Assembly (NCBI GenBank): GCA_017795005.1
Contig: CP051242.1
Location: forward strand, 1,054,001 to 1,118,000
Origin: Balneolaceae bacterium
GTDB taxonomy: Bacteria; Bacteroidota; Rhodothermia; Balneolales; Balneolaceae
Reading direction: 5' to 3'
Length of the DNA stretch: 64,000 nt
The number at the start of each line of letters is the position of its first letter. Within the stretch, counting starts at the first letter, position 1. The notes under the pieces were generated by a model. The model was not told where the DNA came from. It saw nothing but the letters and a program-made list of their open reading frames with translations, and made no database searches. Positions 9,027-37,278 of this stretch are shown here, one piece after another. Both the position numbers and the translations under genes were made by a program.

Positions 9027-10385
9027 ATGGAAGATACTTTAAAAAAAAACTGGAGCCCTACAAGCTGGTTAGATAAACCAATCAAGCAACTGCCAGAATA
9101 TCCCAATAAAAAGGAACTGGACGATAGTTTCGAGACTCTTAAGAAATTACCTCCTTTAGTTACTTCGTGGGAAATTGAAGCTCTAAAAAATAAACTGGCA
9201 CAGGTTTCGGCTGGAAAATCATTTTTGTTACAAGCTGGTGATTGCGCAGAAAGTTTTAGTCTTACAAATTCACCAAAGATCGTAAATACCGTTAAAGTAT
9301 TACTTCAAACCAGTTTTATTTTAATTCATGAACTTGGTGTACCGGTAGTAAGGCTTGGCAGAATAGCAGGCCAATATGCAAAACCTCGGTCACAGGATTT
9401 TGAAGAAGTAAATGGGGAAATGATTCACAACTATCGGGGTGACCTGATCAATGGTTTTGAGCCAACTAAGGAAGCTCGTACTCCCGATCCTCAACGCCTA
9501 ATTGAAGGGTACCATAAAGCTGCATTAACGTTGAATTTTGTCAGAGCACTTGCAGACGAAGGCTTTGCGGATCTTCACCACCCAGAGCAGTGGGAACTCG
9601 ATTTCATGAAGAACAATGAGTATTACAAAGAATACGAAGCGATGGTGGAATCGATTACTAAAGCGGTAAAGTTTGTGGATGCTATTTCACCGGATCGTTT
9701 TTCCAGTTTTCAGAAAGTGGATATTTATACTTCTCACGAAGCTTTAAATTTATATTACGATTCAGCTCAAACCCGTAAAGTACCTCGTAAGACAGATTTC
9801 TTTAATTTAAGCTCACATATGGTGTGGCTCGGTAATCGTACACGTGAACTTGATGGAGCTCATGTTGAATATTTGAAGGGTATTACCAATCCAATTGGTA
9901 TAAAGGTTGGCCCTCCTTATACCATCGATGATACGCTAAAATTGATTGAGAAGCTGAATCCAACTCATGAGGCAGGTAAAATGGTGTTGATTACCCGTTT
10001 TGGGAAATCTGTAATTGAAGATGAACTACCCGGATTGATTCGTGCGGTAAGAAGAGAGGGCTTTCCGGTTGTTTGGAGTTCAGATCCTATGCATGGTAAT
10101 ACATTTTCTTCTTCAAATAATTATAAGACTCGTAATTTCGATCATATTCTTCAAGAAATTAAATCTGCTTTTGCTATCCATAGAGCTGAAGGAAGTTATC
10201 TTGGAGGTGTACACCTCGAACTAACCGGTGATAATGTAACTGAGTGTGTAGGCGGGGCAAAAGGATTAAACGAAGAAGGATTGGATCATAATTATGAAAC
10301 CTTCTGCGATCCACGCTTAAATTACGAGCAATCTCTGGAAATGGCATTTCTGGTAGCCAAAGAATGGAAGCAAAGCTATTCTTGA
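9027..10385 (+). CDS. aroG: Class II 3-deoxy-7-phosphoheptulonate synthase
   Basis: DAHP synthase joins phosphoenolpyruvate and erythrose 4-phosphate in the first step of the shikimate pathway to aromatic amino acids. The class II (plant/mycobacterial) type is shown by WSPTSW near the start, LLQAGDCAESF, RLGRIAGQYAKPRS, SHEALNLYYD, GNRTRELDGAHVEY, KVGPP and WSSDPMHGN. I chose the ATG at 9027, giving 452 residues, because class II enzymes begin just before the W-P-S-W motif. A longer in-frame TTG start at 8955 would add an atypical 24-residue leader. It is divergent from the cyclase gene with about 117 bases between them. A strong inverted repeat follows the stop. No other aromatic pathway gene is nearby. 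Confidence 0.96.
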   Translation: MEDTLKKNWSPTSWLDKPIKQLPEYPNKKELDDSFETLKKLPPLVTSWEIEALKNKLAQVSAGKSFLLQAGDCAESFSLTNSPKIVNTVKVLLQTSFILIHELGVPVVRLGRIAGQYAKPRSQDFEEVNGEMIHNYRGDLINGFEPTKEARTPDPQRLIEGYHKAALTLNFVRALADEGFADLHHPEQWELDFMKNNEYYKEYEAMVESITKAVKFVDAISPDRFSSFQKVDIYTSHEALNLYYDSAQTRKVPRKTDFFNLSSHMVWLGNRTRELDGAHVEYLKGITNPIGIKVGPPYTIDDTLKLIEKLNPTHEAGKMVLITRFGKSVIEDELPGLIRAVRREGFPVVWSSDPMHGNTFSSSNNYKTRNFDHILQEIKSAFAIHRAEGSYLGGVHLELTGDNVTECVGGAKGLNEEGLDHNYETFCDPRLNYEQSLEMAFLVAKEWKQSYS

Positions 10386-10390
10386 ATTAT

Positions 10391-10474
10391 AAATTCAAAA
10401 TTAAGAATTAAAAATTTGGCATAAATATCTGATGCTGCCAAATTTTTAATTTTAAATTCTTTCATTTTGAATTT
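10391..10474 (+). terminator. Long AT-rich inverted repeat / terminator after aroG
   Basis: The outer arms AAATTCAAAA (10391-10400) and TTTTGAATTT (10465-10474) are exact complements. Inner arms around 10405-10421 and 10436-10452 pair through AATTAAAAATTTGGCA and TGCCAAATTTTTAATT. The stem begins six bases after the aroG stop and would end its transcript. It is built from repeating short words, like the inverted repeats at 30908-30992 and 35674-36077. Confidence 0.7.
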
Positions 10475-26757: not shown

Positions 26758-26848
26758 TATATGAAATGTTAAATGATGAATGTTTGAATTTTAAATGTAA
26801 GAAAAGAAGCATTTAAACAAATATCGAATAAGGAATAACCATTTACCA

Positions 26849-27469
26849 TTAACCATTAACCAAATTCACCACATTATCACACAGTTCAATTTCTTTAGTA
26901 TCATTAGAAGCGAGAATCACTAAAGTTCCTTTTTCTTTCTGATCAGTGACAATCTTTTTAACTAACTCATGACCCTTTTCATCCAAATTGGACCCTGGTT
27001 CATCCAGAAATAAAATCTGTGGGTTTGTAATCAATGAAGAAGCCAGTTTTACTCTTTGTCGTTGCCCTGTTGAAAGTTCTTTAAACAATTGATCTCTGAA
27101 ATCTCCCATCTGCACATACTCTAAAGCCGAAGTAATCTCTTGAGGGCTCACATGATGTCCGCCTACTTTTCTAAGAAATTCCAGATTTTCATATGCTGAA
27201 AGTTCATCATACAAATTGATATATGGAGCTGAAAAACCTAAGAGCGGTTTTATTTGTTCTTTTGAGAATACTTCAACACCAAGTTTCCAGATAAGTGTTC
27301 CGGATTTGGGTCGTAAAAGCCCGGCCATACATTTCAGTAAAGTAGATTTTCCACTTCCGTTGGAACCGGAAATACCCAAAACTCCTTCGGAATGAGTAAA
27401 TGTAAGGTCACTAAAAACTATTCTCCGGTTGTATGTTTTGGAAAGCTGCTCTGCCTGTACTGAAATCAT
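26849..27469 (-). CDS. ABC transporter ATP-binding protein (CcmA-like)
   Basis: The 206-residue protein starts at the ATG 27467-27469. It has Walker A GSNGSGKSTLL (about 35-45), the Q-loop replaced by FSAPYINLYDELS, the signature LSTGQRQRVKLA, and Walker B ILFLDEPGSNLDEKG. Its small size and the T-G-Q signature resemble the heme-exporter ATPase CcmA, but no ccmB/ccmC permease is adjacent, so the partner is not known. The final codons lie in a repeat of the word GGTTAAT that continues past the stop (GGTTAATGGTTAATGG...). It is divergent from the gene at 27598 with about 128 bases between them. Confidence 0.9.
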   Translation of the reverse strand: MISVQAEQLSKTYNRRIVFSDLTFTHSEGVLGISGSNGSGKSTLLKCMAGLLRPKSGTLIWKLGVEVFSKEQIKPLLGFSAPYINLYDELSAYENLEFLRKVGGHHVSPQEITSALEYVQMGDFRDQLFKELSTGQRQRVKLASSLITNPQILFLDEPGSNLDEKGHELVKKIVTDQKEKGTLVILASNDTKEIELCDNVVNLVNG

Positions 27470-33315: not shown

Positions 33316-35661
33316 ATGAAAAAAATACGAAAAGTGGCAGTATTAGGTTCTGGTGTAATGGGCAGCCAGATTGCTGCGCACTGTGTTAATGCCGGGCTAG
33401 AAGTGCTTTTACTTGATCTGAAAAGTGACGACCCAAAACGACCAAACAAAATTGTCGAAGAGAGCATTAAGAAAATTCAGAACCTGAAGCCTGCTCCATT
33501 CGGTCTTCTAAAGTTTGCTTCAAGGATTCAGGTTGGGAATTTTGAAGATGATTTCGGTCAACTTAAAGAAGCTGACTGGATTTGTGAGGTAATTATTGAA
33601 CGAATGGACATCAAGAAAGAAATGATGTCCAGATTAGATTCAATAAGAAGCCCAAGAACAATCGTAAGTTCAAATACATCTGGTTTACCAATTTCTGAAA
33701 TTAGTTCAGATTGTTCAAAGGACTTCAAAGAACATTTCCTGGGAACACATTTCTTCAATCCTCCAAGGTATATGAAATTACTGGAGATTATTCCGACGGA
33801 ATCAACATCTGAAAAAGTAATTTCACATATGAAACGATTTTCGGAGAAAGTGTTAGGAAAGGGAGTAGTTCTCTGTAAAGATACCCCAAACTTCGTCGCT
33901 AATAGAATTGGTGTTTTTTCAATGGCATCAATAATGCCTCATTTTTTTGAGGGAAATTTTCGGGTTGAAGAAATTGATGCATTAACAGGAACTCTTACCG
34001 GTTATTCAAAATCTGCAACTTTCCGAACCGGTGATATCGTTGGGCTGGACGTGATGGCACACGTTTCACGGAATATTCATCCACTTATTCAAGAGGATGA
34101 AATGAAAGATGTTTTTAATCTTCCCGAGAAGTTTGGAGAGATGATTTCGGAAGGAAGATTAGGAAATAAAACGGGACAGGGATTTTATAAAAAAGTTCAA
34201 ACGGAGAAAGGAAGAGAATTTCATGTACTAAATCCTGAGACTCTTGATTATGAACCTCAGAACGAAATTAATAATGAAGTAATAAGTGAAGCAAAAAGCA
34301 TTCGAAAAAAAACAGATCGGTTAAAGTTTCTGAGTTTTCATGAATCTGAAGTAGGTAGTTTTGTTTGGGAAACTCAAAGAGATTTATTGTTATACGCCGC
34401 AAACAGAGTTCCCGAAATATCTGATTCTATTGAATCAATAGACCGGGCAATGAAATGGGGTTTTAACTGGGAGATGGGACCTTTCGAGCGTTGGGATGCC
34501 CTTGGGGTACAAACAGTTGTAGAAAGGCTGACATCAGAAGAAAGAAAGATTCCAGTATTAATTTCAGAATTGAAGAATGCTGGATTTAATTCTTTTTATA
34601 AGGATGGGAAAGTCTTTGATCCTGTTACCAAAACTATGGTAGATCAAACACCGAATGCTGAAGGTGAACTTACAGTAGCAGAAGTAAGGGCATCAAGTCA
34701 CCCTTTTTTCGAAAACGACTCGGCTGCACTGCTGGATATGGGTGATGGAATAGCATTATTTGAATTCAAAACAAAAAATGCTACCCTCGGTTTTGAACTA
34801 GTTAAATCACTTGAAAACTGTCTGGCTTCCGTAGAAAAGCATTTTAAAGCGCTTGTAATAAGTCATGATGGAGATAATTTTGCTTACGGAGCTAACCTGA
34901 TTGAAGCAGTACAGGCAGTTCAGTCAGGTAAATTTGAAGATGTTGTAGCTGCGGTTACAAATTTTCAAAGAACAGCTATCAAATTGAAATATGCTTCCTT
35001 CCCAGTTGTAGCTGCTCCGTTTGGAAGAACTCTGGGTGGAGGAACAGAATTTGTGTTGTATTCTGATCGGGTTGTTGCTCACCATGAATTATATATGGGT
35101 TTGGTTGAGGTTGGTGTAGGCTTGATTCCAGCTGGAGGTGGAACAACAGAGCTTTTGAAAAGAGCAATGAATAAACTTGAGTCTGAAGCAGATCCAATTC
35201 CATTCATTAAAGAAGTTTTTAAAACAATTGGATTAGCAAAAGTCTCAGACAGCGCATTCAGAGCAAAAGAATTAGGATTTTTGAGAGATGAAGATTTGAT
35301 AATTATGAATCGAAATCTTCAACTGGCACTGGCTAAAAAAGAAGCACTTTCAATGGTAGTATCCGGATATCAGCCACCAGCTAAAGAAGAAGTATTAGTT
35401 CTGGGAGAAAAAGTACTTGGTATTTTGAAAACGATGCTTTACGTGATGCATGAGGCTAAATTTGCTACCGATTATGATAAAGTTGTAAGTGGGCGAGTAG
35501 CTAATGTGCTATCTGGTGGTGATTTAAGTGAGCCTCAAATAGTTTCGGAAGATTATCTGTTTAAGCTTGAAAGAGAAGCAATTCTGGAATGTTTTAATGA
35601 TAAAGGTACTCATGCAAGGATTGAACATATGCTTAAAGCAGGTAAACCTCTTAGGAATTAG
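33316..35661 (+). CDS. fadN: FadN-type 3-hydroxyacyl-CoA dehydrogenase / enoyl-CoA hydratase
   Basis: This 781-residue bifunctional beta-oxidation enzyme has the dehydrogenase domain first: Rossmann motif GSGVMGSQIAAHCVNAG near residue 12, SSNTSGLPISEIS, and HFFNPPRYMKLLEIIP with the catalytic His. A second dehydrogenase C-terminal domain follows (about 345-400). The crotonase-type hydratase domain comes last (about 475-700: FPVVAAPFGRTLGGGTEFVL, VEVGVGLIPAGGGTTELLKRA). This order is that of FadN and is the reverse of E. coli FadB. It works with the thiolase FadA downstream. An unusual gene for a four-helix protein lies between the two. Confidence 0.95.
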   Translation: MKKIRKVAVLGSGVMGSQIAAHCVNAGLEVLLLDLKSDDPKRPNKIVEESIKKIQNLKPAPFGLLKFASRIQVGNFEDDFGQLKEADWICEVIIERMDIKKEMMSRLDSIRSPRTIVSSNTSGLPISEISSDCSKDFKEHFLGTHFFNPPRYMKLLEIIPTESTSEKVISHMKRFSEKVLGKGVVLCKDTPNFVANRIGVFSMASIMPHFFEGNFRVEEIDALTGTLTGYSKSATFRTGDIVGLDVMAHVSRNIHPLIQEDEMKDVFNLPEKFGEMISEGRLGNKTGQGFYKKVQTEKGREFHVLNPETLDYEPQNEINNEVISEAKSIRKKTDRLKFLSFHESEVGSFVWETQRDLLLYAANRVPEISDSIESIDRAMKWGFNWEMGPFERWDALGVQTVVERLTSEERKIPVLISELKNAGFNSFYKDGKVFDPVTKTMVDQTPNAEGELTVAEVRASSHPFFENDSAALLDMGDGIALFEFKTKNATLGFELVKSLENCLASVEKHFKALVISHDGDNFAYGANLIEAVQAVQSGKFEDVVAAVTNFQRTAIKLKYASFPVVAAPFGRTLGGGTEFVLYSDRVVAHHELYMGLVEVGVGLIPAGGGTTELLKRAMNKLESEADPIPFIKEVFKTIGLAKVSDSAFRAKELGFLRDEDLIIMNRNLQLALAKKEALSMVVSGYQPPAKEEVLVLGEKVLGILKTMLYVMHEAKFATDYDKVVSGRVANVLSGGDLSEPQIVSEDYLFKLEREAILECFNDKGTHARIEHMLKAGKPLRN

Positions 35662-35673
35662 GGTTGAGTATTG

Positions 35674-35697
35674 AGTTAGGAGTTCAGAGTTATGAGT
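35674..35697. repeat. Left arm of perfect 24-bp inverted repeat around the four-helix gene
   Basis: The 24 bases are exactly complementary to 36054-36077. The arm begins 13 bases after the fadN stop, contains AGTTAGGAGTTCAGAG, and includes the ATG (35692-35694) of the four-helix gene. In RNA the start codon and the ribosome site would lie inside the stem. Confidence 0.95.
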
Positions 35698-36042
35698 GAT
35701 TATAAAAAGCTTGAGATTTGGAAGAGGTCAGTTGTATTAGCCACAGATATCTACAGGCTTACAAGTTTTTTTCCAAATGAAGAAAAGTTTGGATTGACTT
35801 CTCAAATGAGAAGAAGTGTAGTTTCAATCTCTTCTAATATTGCTGAAGGTTCAGGAAGAGGATCAAAGAAGGAATTCATCCAGTTTTTGAATTACGCTTA
35901 TGGATCCGCTTCTGAACTTGAGAGTCAGCTATTGATTTCATCAAATCTTGAGTTTACTACTAAGGAAAATTTTGTAAGTCTGTCTAAAGAACTTGATGAA
36001 ATACAAAAAATGATTTTCGTATTCAGAAATACGCTAAAATGA
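35692..36042 (+). CDS. Four-helix bundle protein (23S rRNA intervening-sequence protein family)
   Basis: The 116-residue protein has the family pattern DYKKLEIWKRSVVLATDIYR at the start, FPNEEKFGLTSQMRRSVVSISSNIAEGSGR in the middle, and a C-terminal helix pair (FLNYAYGSASELESQLLIS and LSKELDEIQKMIFVFRNTL). This small basic helical protein was first seen encoded in intervening sequences of 23S rRNA genes in spirochaetes and Coxiella. Its function is unproven. Here it sits between fadN and fadA and is bounded by a perfect 24-bp inverted repeat, so it looks like a discrete inserted unit that shares the operon transcript. Confidence 0.95.
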   Translation: MSDYKKLEIWKRSVVLATDIYRLTSFFPNEEKFGLTSQMRRSVVSISSNIAEGSGRGSKKEFIQFLNYAYGSASELESQLLISSNLEFTTKENFVSLSKELDEIQKMIFVFRNTLK

Positions 36043-36053
36043 AACGACTACAA

Positions 36054-36077
36054 ACTCATAACTCTGAACTCCTAACT
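36054..36077. repeat. Right arm of perfect 24-bp inverted repeat around the four-helix gene
   Basis: This arm is the exact complement of 35674-35697, starting 11 bases after the stop of the four-helix gene and ending 16 bases before the fadA ATG. The arms would fold the transcript into a long stem closing a loop of about 356 bases, resembling the RNase III-processed stem of rRNA intervening sequences. Confidence 0.95.
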
Positions 36078-36093
36078 AAAAACCTCATAGCTC

Positions 36094-37278
36094 ATGACTA
36101 AAGAAGCATTTATCGTAGTTGCAAAAAGAACTGCATGTGGAAAAGCCAACAAAGGATCGCTTAGGTTTACTTATCCAGACACTCTTGGAGGAGAGGTCAT
36201 TAAAGATTTATTAAAAGAAGTACCCAATTTAGCTCCGGAAGATATTGATGATGTAATCATGGGCTGCGCCTTTCCCGAAGCTTCTCAGGGTCTTAATATT
36301 GCACGACAAATTGCTCTTTTAGGTGATTTACCAGATTCAGTGCCTGGAGTAACCATCAATCGTTTTTGTTCATCAGGTTTACAAACTATCTCAATGGCTG
36401 CTGAACGAATAATAGCAGGTGGAGCAGATGTAATTGTTGCAGGTGGAGTGGAATCTATGAGTATGGTCCCAATGGGAGGGGTATCATTTCAACCCAACCC
36501 AAGATTAGTGGATGACAGACCGGAAGTGTATATCAGCATGGGGCTTACCGCAGAAAATGTTGCAGAGAAATATAAAATCAGTAGAGAAGACCAGGATGCA
36601 TTTGCATATAAAAGTCACCAACGCTCCATCTCAGCGTGGGAGCAAGGAAGATTTAATGACCAGATTACTCCAATTGAAGTTGTTGAAAAGAAAGTCAGTG
36701 CAGAGGGAGAAATCCTTAAAGAAACTTATACCTTCAGTACTGATGAAGGTCCAAGAGCGGATACTTCTATAGAAGTTTTGAATAAACTACGCCCGGTTTT
36801 TAAAGCAGGAGGAAGCGTAACTGCCGGAAACTCATCTCAAATGAATGATGCTGCTTCAGCTGTTTTAGTGATGAGTGGAGATAAAGTAAAGAAACTAGGA
36901 TTAAATCCTATTGCAAGATATGTAGCTTTTGATGTTGCGGGAGTGGCGCCTGAATTTATGGGGATTGGTCCTGTTGAGGCAGTCCCAAAAGTTTTAAAAA
37001 GGGCAGGACTGTCTCTTAATGATATCGATTTAATCGAGCTTAATGAGGCCTTTGCTTCCCAGTCTTTAGCAGTAATACATGAGTTAGGTTTAGATCAGGA
37101 AATTACCAATGTGAATGGAGGTGCAATAGCAATGGGGCATCCTCTTGGATGTACAGGGGCTAAACTTACGACTCAAATTTTACACGAAATGCAGCATAGA
37201 AAATCGAAATATGGTTTAGTAACCATGTGTATTGGTGGAGGAATGGGAGCTGCAGGAATTTTTGAAAATCTAAGTTGA
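36094..37278 (+). CDS. fadA: Acetyl-CoA acyltransferase (thiolase)
   Basis: This 394-residue thiolase cleaves 3-ketoacyl-CoA with CoA in the last step of beta-oxidation. The active cysteine lies in NRFCSSGLQTI (Cys near 92), the His in GGAIAMGHPLGCTGA, and the second Cys in VTMCIGGGMGAAG. AGNSSQMNDAASAVLVMSG and LNEAFASQSLAV are standard. The length and motifs fit the degradative FadA type that pairs with FadN, rather than the biosynthetic PhbA type, but the two are close. The SDR gene starts 4 bases after its stop. Confidence 0.95.
   Translation: MTKEAFIVVAKRTACGKANKGSLRFTYPDTLGGEVIKDLLKEVPNLAPEDIDDVIMGCAFPEASQGLNIARQIALLGDLPDSVPGVTINRFCSSGLQTISMAAERIIAGGADVIVAGGVESMSMVPMGGVSFQPNPRLVDDRPEVYISMGLTAENVAEKYKISREDQDAFAYKSHQRSISAWEQGRFNDQITPIEVVEKKVSAEGEILKETYTFSTDEGPRADTSIEVLNKLRPVFKAGGSVTAGNSSQMNDAASAVLVMSGDKVKKLGLNPIARYVAFDVAGVAPEFMGIGPVEAVPKVLKRAGLSLNDIDLIELNEAFASQSLAVIHELGLDQEITNVNGGAIAMGHPLGCTGAKLTTQILHEMQHRKSKYGLVTMCIGGGMGAAGIFENLS

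Follow-up and report, generated by a model that had tools for sequence, protein, structure and literature searches.

A four-helix (S23/IVP-type) gene between inverted heptad arrays at the fadN-fadA junction of a Balneolaceae bacterium

Four-helix-bundle proteins of the S23/IVP type are best known from rRNA, and to our knowledge no function has been assigned to them. In a 64,000-nucleotide stretch of a Balneolaceae genome (contig CP051242.1, positions 1,054,001 to 1,118,000; hereafter the window), a gene of this family lies between two genes of β-oxidation, fadN and fadA, and is enclosed by a long inverted repeat. The question raised by this locus is what such a unit represents within a protein-coding operon, and at which level, RNA or DNA, its arms act. 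With moderate confidence, the unit is read here as one copy of a widespread, transposase-less palindromic cassette that would act at the level of (single-stranded) DNA and that rides, in this case, on the fad mRNA.

The unit and its junction in relatives

The features of the window that are discussed below are as follows.

33316–35661, + strand: fadN, 3-hydroxyacyl-CoA dehydrogenase / enoyl-CoA hydratase, the upstream flank (stop codon at 35659–35661)
35667–35697, + strand: left arm, heptads AGTATTG-AGTTAGG-AGTTCAG-AGTTATG-AGT, with a perfect core at 35674–35697
35692–36042, + strand: four-helix-bundle gene (PF05635/TIGR02436), 116 aa
36054–36077, − strand: right arm, perfect reverse complement of 35674–35697, with complementarity reaching 36083
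36084–36093, + strand: outer end of the right array, pairing with 35661–35668 in the RNA fold
36094–37278, + strand: fadA, thiolase, the downstream flank
10383–10474, no strand: heptad hairpin lacking a gene, composed of an array (10383–10418) and its inverted partner (10448–10474)

An earlier note on this DNA had described a four-helix IVP gene between fadN and fadA, surrounded by a perfect 24-bp inverted repeat with the start codon of the gene in its left arm, and this description was borne out. The gene scores well above the cut-offs of the Pfam model 23S_rRNA_IVP (E 8e-41, 139 bits versus 33.8) and of TIGR02436 (133.7 bits versus 24), and the solved structures closest to its product are PDB entries 2gsc (E 1.4e-23) and 2rld. 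The Pfam domains of the flanking genes, 3HCDH and ECH on one side and thiolase on the other, identify FadN and FadA. By sequence comparison, 35674–35697 and 36054–36077 are exact reverse complements (24 of 24 nucleotides), the pairing widens to 30 nucleotides at 93% (35668–35697 with 36054–36083), and the ATG at 35692 falls within the left arm. The 24-mer has no second site in the window with up to three mismatches allowed, and shuffled windows contained no such 24-mer repeat.

The left array, detected by its self-match at a lag of seven at 35664–35700, starts six bases past the fadN stop, and the right arm is the complement of its last three and a half heptads. A weaker outer helix follows, the last base of which directly precedes the fadA ATG. 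As RNA, the unit is predicted to fold at −134 kcal/mol (z −6.6). Neither a sigma-70-like promoter at the unit nor an intrinsic terminator (stem plus T run) between 35500 and 36200 was found. The window copy also lacks the TGTAAGG-type promoter box described below, and it is therefore probably expressed as part of the fad operon mRNA. Elsewhere in the window, a second solo 7-bp array (ACCATTAACCATTAACCA) is located at 26826–26867 and has no clear inverted partner.

The fadN stop and the fadA ATG are separated by 432 nt in the window genome and by 1 nt in a congener (G002), an empty site of the kind that the earlier note had proposed to look for. In a second congener (G001), the gap of 195 nt holds a truncated, decayed four-helix gene with arms that are still recognisable, and the junctions of G014, G011 and G026 measure 1–3 nt; overall, the gap is empty in a congener and in many genera. 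In other Balneolaceae, it contains four-helix genes with wholly different arms, or a hairpin- or arm-like spacer of 30–110 nt. No target-site duplication was seen by comparison with the empty congener site. Presence of the unit is thus patchy, and complementarity of the arms is kept while their sequence is not, which differs from the fixed, vertically inherited unit with unconserved arms that the earlier note had named as the contrary case. A different type of palindrome, ACACGGATGACGCAGATTT ... ATCTGTGTT, is observed in the fadN-fadA gap of G012 (L026), where there is no four-helix gene.

Copies, arms and a promoter-like box

A protein search of the same genome returned 12 matches. Owing to an overlap of the contig ends, two of these represent a single gene, which leaves about 10 further distinct copies besides that of the window. 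The first 20 kb of the contig (G000:C1, 1–20000) are identical to 3722685–3742684, as fits an untrimmed circular overlap of ~24.4 kb; this overlap doubles the gene counts in the contig-end region, and the identical copies L009 and L010 were rejected as a duplication on the same grounds. Most of the copies have inverted arms, the sequence of which is different in each, so the search suggested earlier for further copies with identical arms found that every copy has arms of its own. The closest paralogues in the genome are only 59% identical; no recent copy pair was found there and transposition was not seen. None of the 12 loci has an rRNA match, and no rRNA intervening-sequence copies are present among them. 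At one locus (L008), the four-helix gene (1435–1758) is found directly before a small SRP RNA gene (RF04183, 1830–1938). Gene-less hairpins of like design are also observed between other genes of this genome.

The same anatomy is a property of the family. Among 137 Balneolaceae four-helix genes, the pairing score of a copy's own flanks has a median of 18, and a score of at least 15 is reached by 75% of them, compared with 8% and 2% of control ORFs of small and large size, respectively (p 4e-40); mismatched pairs and the control ORFs rule out a mere effect of composition. Self-match at a lag of seven is 0.34–0.36 in the flanks versus 0.24–0.25 further out in Balneolaceae, and 0.39–0.41 versus 0.25 in 67 phylum-wide loci. 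Arms of other sequence recur across Bacteroidota, in which 232 of 296 genomes encode four-helix (S23/IVP) proteins. In other phyla, a small sample of 41 loci found through a single protein yielded 36 usable loci with an own-arm median of 22 versus a cross median of 10; Planctomycetota, Cyanobacteria, Chloroflexota, Omnitrophota, Clostridia and Hydrogenedentota are represented. Some dialects of the arms use 8-bp units. Copies favour gaps between co-directional genes. The median dN/dS of orthologous four-helix pairs is 0.05, which corresponds to strong purifying selection and indicates that the protein matters. In a literature search of partial coverage, inverted heptad arms flanking four-helix genes were not found described.

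Comparison of arms between copies shows how they change. A left arm fits the right arm of a different copy only when the two proteins share more than ~60% identity; below 55% identity, the cross-copy match is at background, whereas own arms stay at 18. Own arms match better than cross arms in 886 of 937 decided pairs (51 opposite) at 55–65% protein identity, and in 135 of 182 (47 opposite) at 65–75%. Among orthologues more than 75% identical, own and cross arms are equal and there is no general compensatory signal, so that concerted change must be slow or episodic. At one orthologous site in genus g17 (proteins 95–98% identical), five pairs of a 30-bp stem have changed on both sides, with unpaired intermediates. 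In shuffles of this site, the covariation score was reached in 3 of 500 and the number of such pairs in 58 of 500; the alignment suggests a modest compensatory signal, in that site set only. Unrelated copies have unrelated arms, yet the arms match within each copy, which indicates that the two turn over in concert, and the comparisons over protein identity classes indicate divergence in the short term and joint renewal in the long term.

Many Balneolaceae copies have, in addition, a promoter-like box, TGTAAGGA-N15-GTCTTAC, which accompanies 35 of 40 antisense, 8 of 11 convergent and 17 of 77 sense copies; the sense copies that lack it lie close behind the upstream gene. The pattern was tuned on four-helix leaders and then searched genome-wide. 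In the window genome, TGTAAGG-N14..17-(G/T)TC(A/C/T)TA(C/T) has 10 matches versus 1 for the reversed pattern, and in genus g17 a stricter two-part form occurs up to 19 times per genome versus 0 reversed; control upstream regions contain no box (0/259). The individual sites of the motif in G000 and genus g17 are loci L327–L336 and L337–L366. The 27 g17 box loci with an ORF comprise only four-helix, RAYT/IS200-like, GIY-YIG, DUF559, GxxExxY, radC, ssb and recA genes. In the window genome, a surface-type protein and a nucleotidyltransferase-like gene also follow the box; some of the genes behind it were named by sequence reading only. The two-part box precedes radC in 7 relatives, with variants of 1–3 mismatches in most other family members. 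It is less regular at recA, where the strict form is seen in 1 of 30 relatives and variants of 1–2 mismatches in four more, so the membership of recA is partial. The late-competence genes of pneumococcus include radC, ssbB and recA (PMC6560143). From its gene content, we infer that the box set, seen in Balneolaceae only, may be controlled by an alternative (ECF-like) sigma factor and serve DNA uptake or repair, possibly as an undescribed ECF-type regulon that palindrome-associated genes have joined. Other small genes also have strongly matched inverted flanks: a GIY-YIG nuclease (GTCATTCCCGCGAAGG palindromes), a Y1/RAYT transposase (CGAAGGGTTGAAACCCTTCG), GxxExxY and a DUF559 nuclease (L316:18320-18628, L322:17377-17820, L307:15454-15882 and L330).

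RNA, host-gene and attenuator readings

The closest known counterpart of the unit is the intervening sequence (IVS) of 23S rRNA with an S23p/IVP gene, as found in Coxiella and Leptospira. The two have in common PF05635, a size of ~400 nt, terminal inverted repeats of 24–30 bp and a patchy distribution. By analogy, the arms would pair once fadN-fadA is transcribed, the resulting stem would be cut by RNase III, the four-helix part would be removed or degraded, and the fadN and fadA messages would be separated and tuned. Protein family, size and stem length are indeed as in the IVS of Coxiella, which measures 428 nt and has a 28-bp stem that is cut by RNase III (PMC4990558), and the stable predicted fold of the unit is in keeping with such a role, as is the orientation of copies outside Balneolaceae, nearly all of which are sense and placed between co-directional genes (78 sense, 4 antisense). 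Long-stem terminal inverted repeats do surround an IVP gene here, but the insertion is in a protein-coding operon, with fadN and fadA as flanks, rather than in an rRNA helix, and the arms, unlike those of the rRNA elements, are heptad arrays that differ from copy to copy. The need to express the protein would explain the sense bias equally well, and most of the Balneolaceae copies in antisense (40) or convergent (11) position have retained inverted arms.

The mismatches within the stems also bear on this reading. A stem kept at the RNA level should show more wobble-compatible mismatches than incompatible transitions on the transcribed strand. In sense copies, 147 mismatches are G-U-compatible and 160 incompatible; in antisense copies, where the reverse is expected, the numbers are 53 and 44. 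The lack of a G-U preference, again a departure from the 23S rRNA elements, argues against an RNA-maintained stem. In 39 copies, moreover, the promoter-like box of the copy itself stands downstream of the left arm, and the arms nevertheless match (median 19). Taken with the gene-less hairpins, these comparisons favour a DNA-level role for the arms. The earlier note had suggested that the operon mRNA might be cut or folded at the unit. RNase III may also act on the fad transcript, but such cleavage is not the preferred main function, and an RNA-level intervening sequence is considered rather unlikely.

A domesticated host gene is an improbable reading as well. Here, the four-helix protein would be inherited vertically in β-oxidation operons, for example in a regulatory or accessory RNA-binding role, and a local control hairpin would be formed by the arms. 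The low dN/dS is in line with this proposal, as is the recurrence of the gene beside thiolases: by flank labels, 19 of the 137 Balneolaceae copies are placed at fadN-fadA and 12 ahead of a second thiolase. Outside the family, among 30 FadA loci picked regardless of four-helix genes, such a gene is found beside FadA in seven (directly upstream in three and directly downstream in four, most of them from one family), and a Chitinophagales genome has the order fadN-4HB-fadA, with a protein 52% identical. On the other side, 83 of the 137 copies have no match to the fad references on either flank, the congener and many genera have an empty site, and gene-less hairpins occupy fadN-fadA gaps, including several of those outside the family, as judged by eye. 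A single ancestral copy inherited vertically at fadN-fadA was rejected because the four-helix tree, which is built from short proteins and weakly resolved, scatters the fadA-site copies, requiring 11 label changes, at least three of which are forced by supported branches. In genus g17, as many as four four-helix genes from different subfamilies occupy consecutive gaps of the second thiolase (β-oxidation) operon (L182–L186), with gains and losses among species.

A translational or transcriptional attenuator, in which the hairpin sequesters the four-helix start codon and adjoins the fadA start, would suit an ATG inside the stem and an outer helix that stops one base before the fadA ATG, but it is very improbable given that there is no terminator-like site and that the arms of many other copies are located either 60–150 nt from the start codon or beyond the promoter box on its upstream side.

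A candidate palindromic cassette

The palindromic cassette favoured at the outset would account for the unit as follows. A four-helix (IVP/S23-type) gene between inverted arrays of 7–8-bp units entered the tight fadN-fadA junction and, in sense orientation, would have its protein made from the fad mRNA. The arms would fold as hairpins in single-stranded DNA during replication, repair or DNA uptake, and each arm would be copied or repaired against its partner, by template switching or repair, such that complementarity is kept while sequence turns over. A pentamer of the four-helix protein may bind the arm hairpins and help the cassette to persist or spread, in a way reminiscent of RAYT proteins and REP palindromes but with no transposase domain. 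If the fad mRNA is cleaved within the stem, this would be a by-product. The earlier note had proposed a mobile or modular element. A modular, mobile-like element that resembles 23S rRNA intervening sequences is supported by patchy occurrence of the junction in empty, decayed, gene-less and re-occupied states, by the other copies and by recurrence at fadN-fadA in other classes. No transposition was seen, and it is from sequence comparison that we infer movement of the cassettes. Further points count against the cassette reading: no known enzyme is encoded in it, and a domesticated host gene would likewise be expected to show the strong purifying selection that is observed, in some genera, at fixed sites.

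Several known systems resemble the cassette in part. Similar to REP/REPIN sequences and their RAYTs, it comprises a small gene in inverted palindromic repeats, gene-less hairpins are found elsewhere, and a promoter type is held in common in Balneolaceae. Unlike them, it has no Y1 transposase, PF05635 being the only domain in the gene, and its arms are not one sequence shared genome-wide. It differs from insertion sequences and transposons in lacking a transposase and in the target-site duplication not being seen. TAACTGA and other heptamer direct repeats have been described in Beggiatoaceae, Cyanobacteria and Bacteroidetes (MacGregor 2015, PMC4679880). These are also short intergenic 7-bp arrays, often beside start codons and in some of the same lineages, and might be linked to the four-helix cassettes; they differ in being direct repeats, with only one inverted set, and four-helix genes are unmentioned in that work. 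The Avd protein of diversity-generating retroelements has a homologous four-helix fold (PMC10053308). The Avd model scores 23.2 bits on the window protein versus a cut-off of 80, and the unit has β-oxidation genes as neighbours and no reverse transcriptase beside it.

More tentatively, PF05635 cassettes could as a whole constitute a distinct, cross-phylum class of transposase-less mobile DNA, in which the pentamer acts on single-stranded heptad hairpins and each arm serves to rewrite the other. In Balneolaceae, a single dedicated promoter type would turn on these cassettes along with RadC, SSB, RecA, RAYT and small nucleases when cells enter a competence-like or DNA-damage state; this wider proposal is possible and speculative. 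The placement of most four-helix genes within inverted heptad arrays of their own, the co-evolution of the arms and the promoter-like box that they have in common, in one family, with recombination genes provide a concrete, testable hypothesis for the function of these proteins. The cassette view offers an explanation for many otherwise unexplained short-repeat hairpins between genes, including some that separate genes within one operon, and points to a type of small mobile DNA that has been little described.
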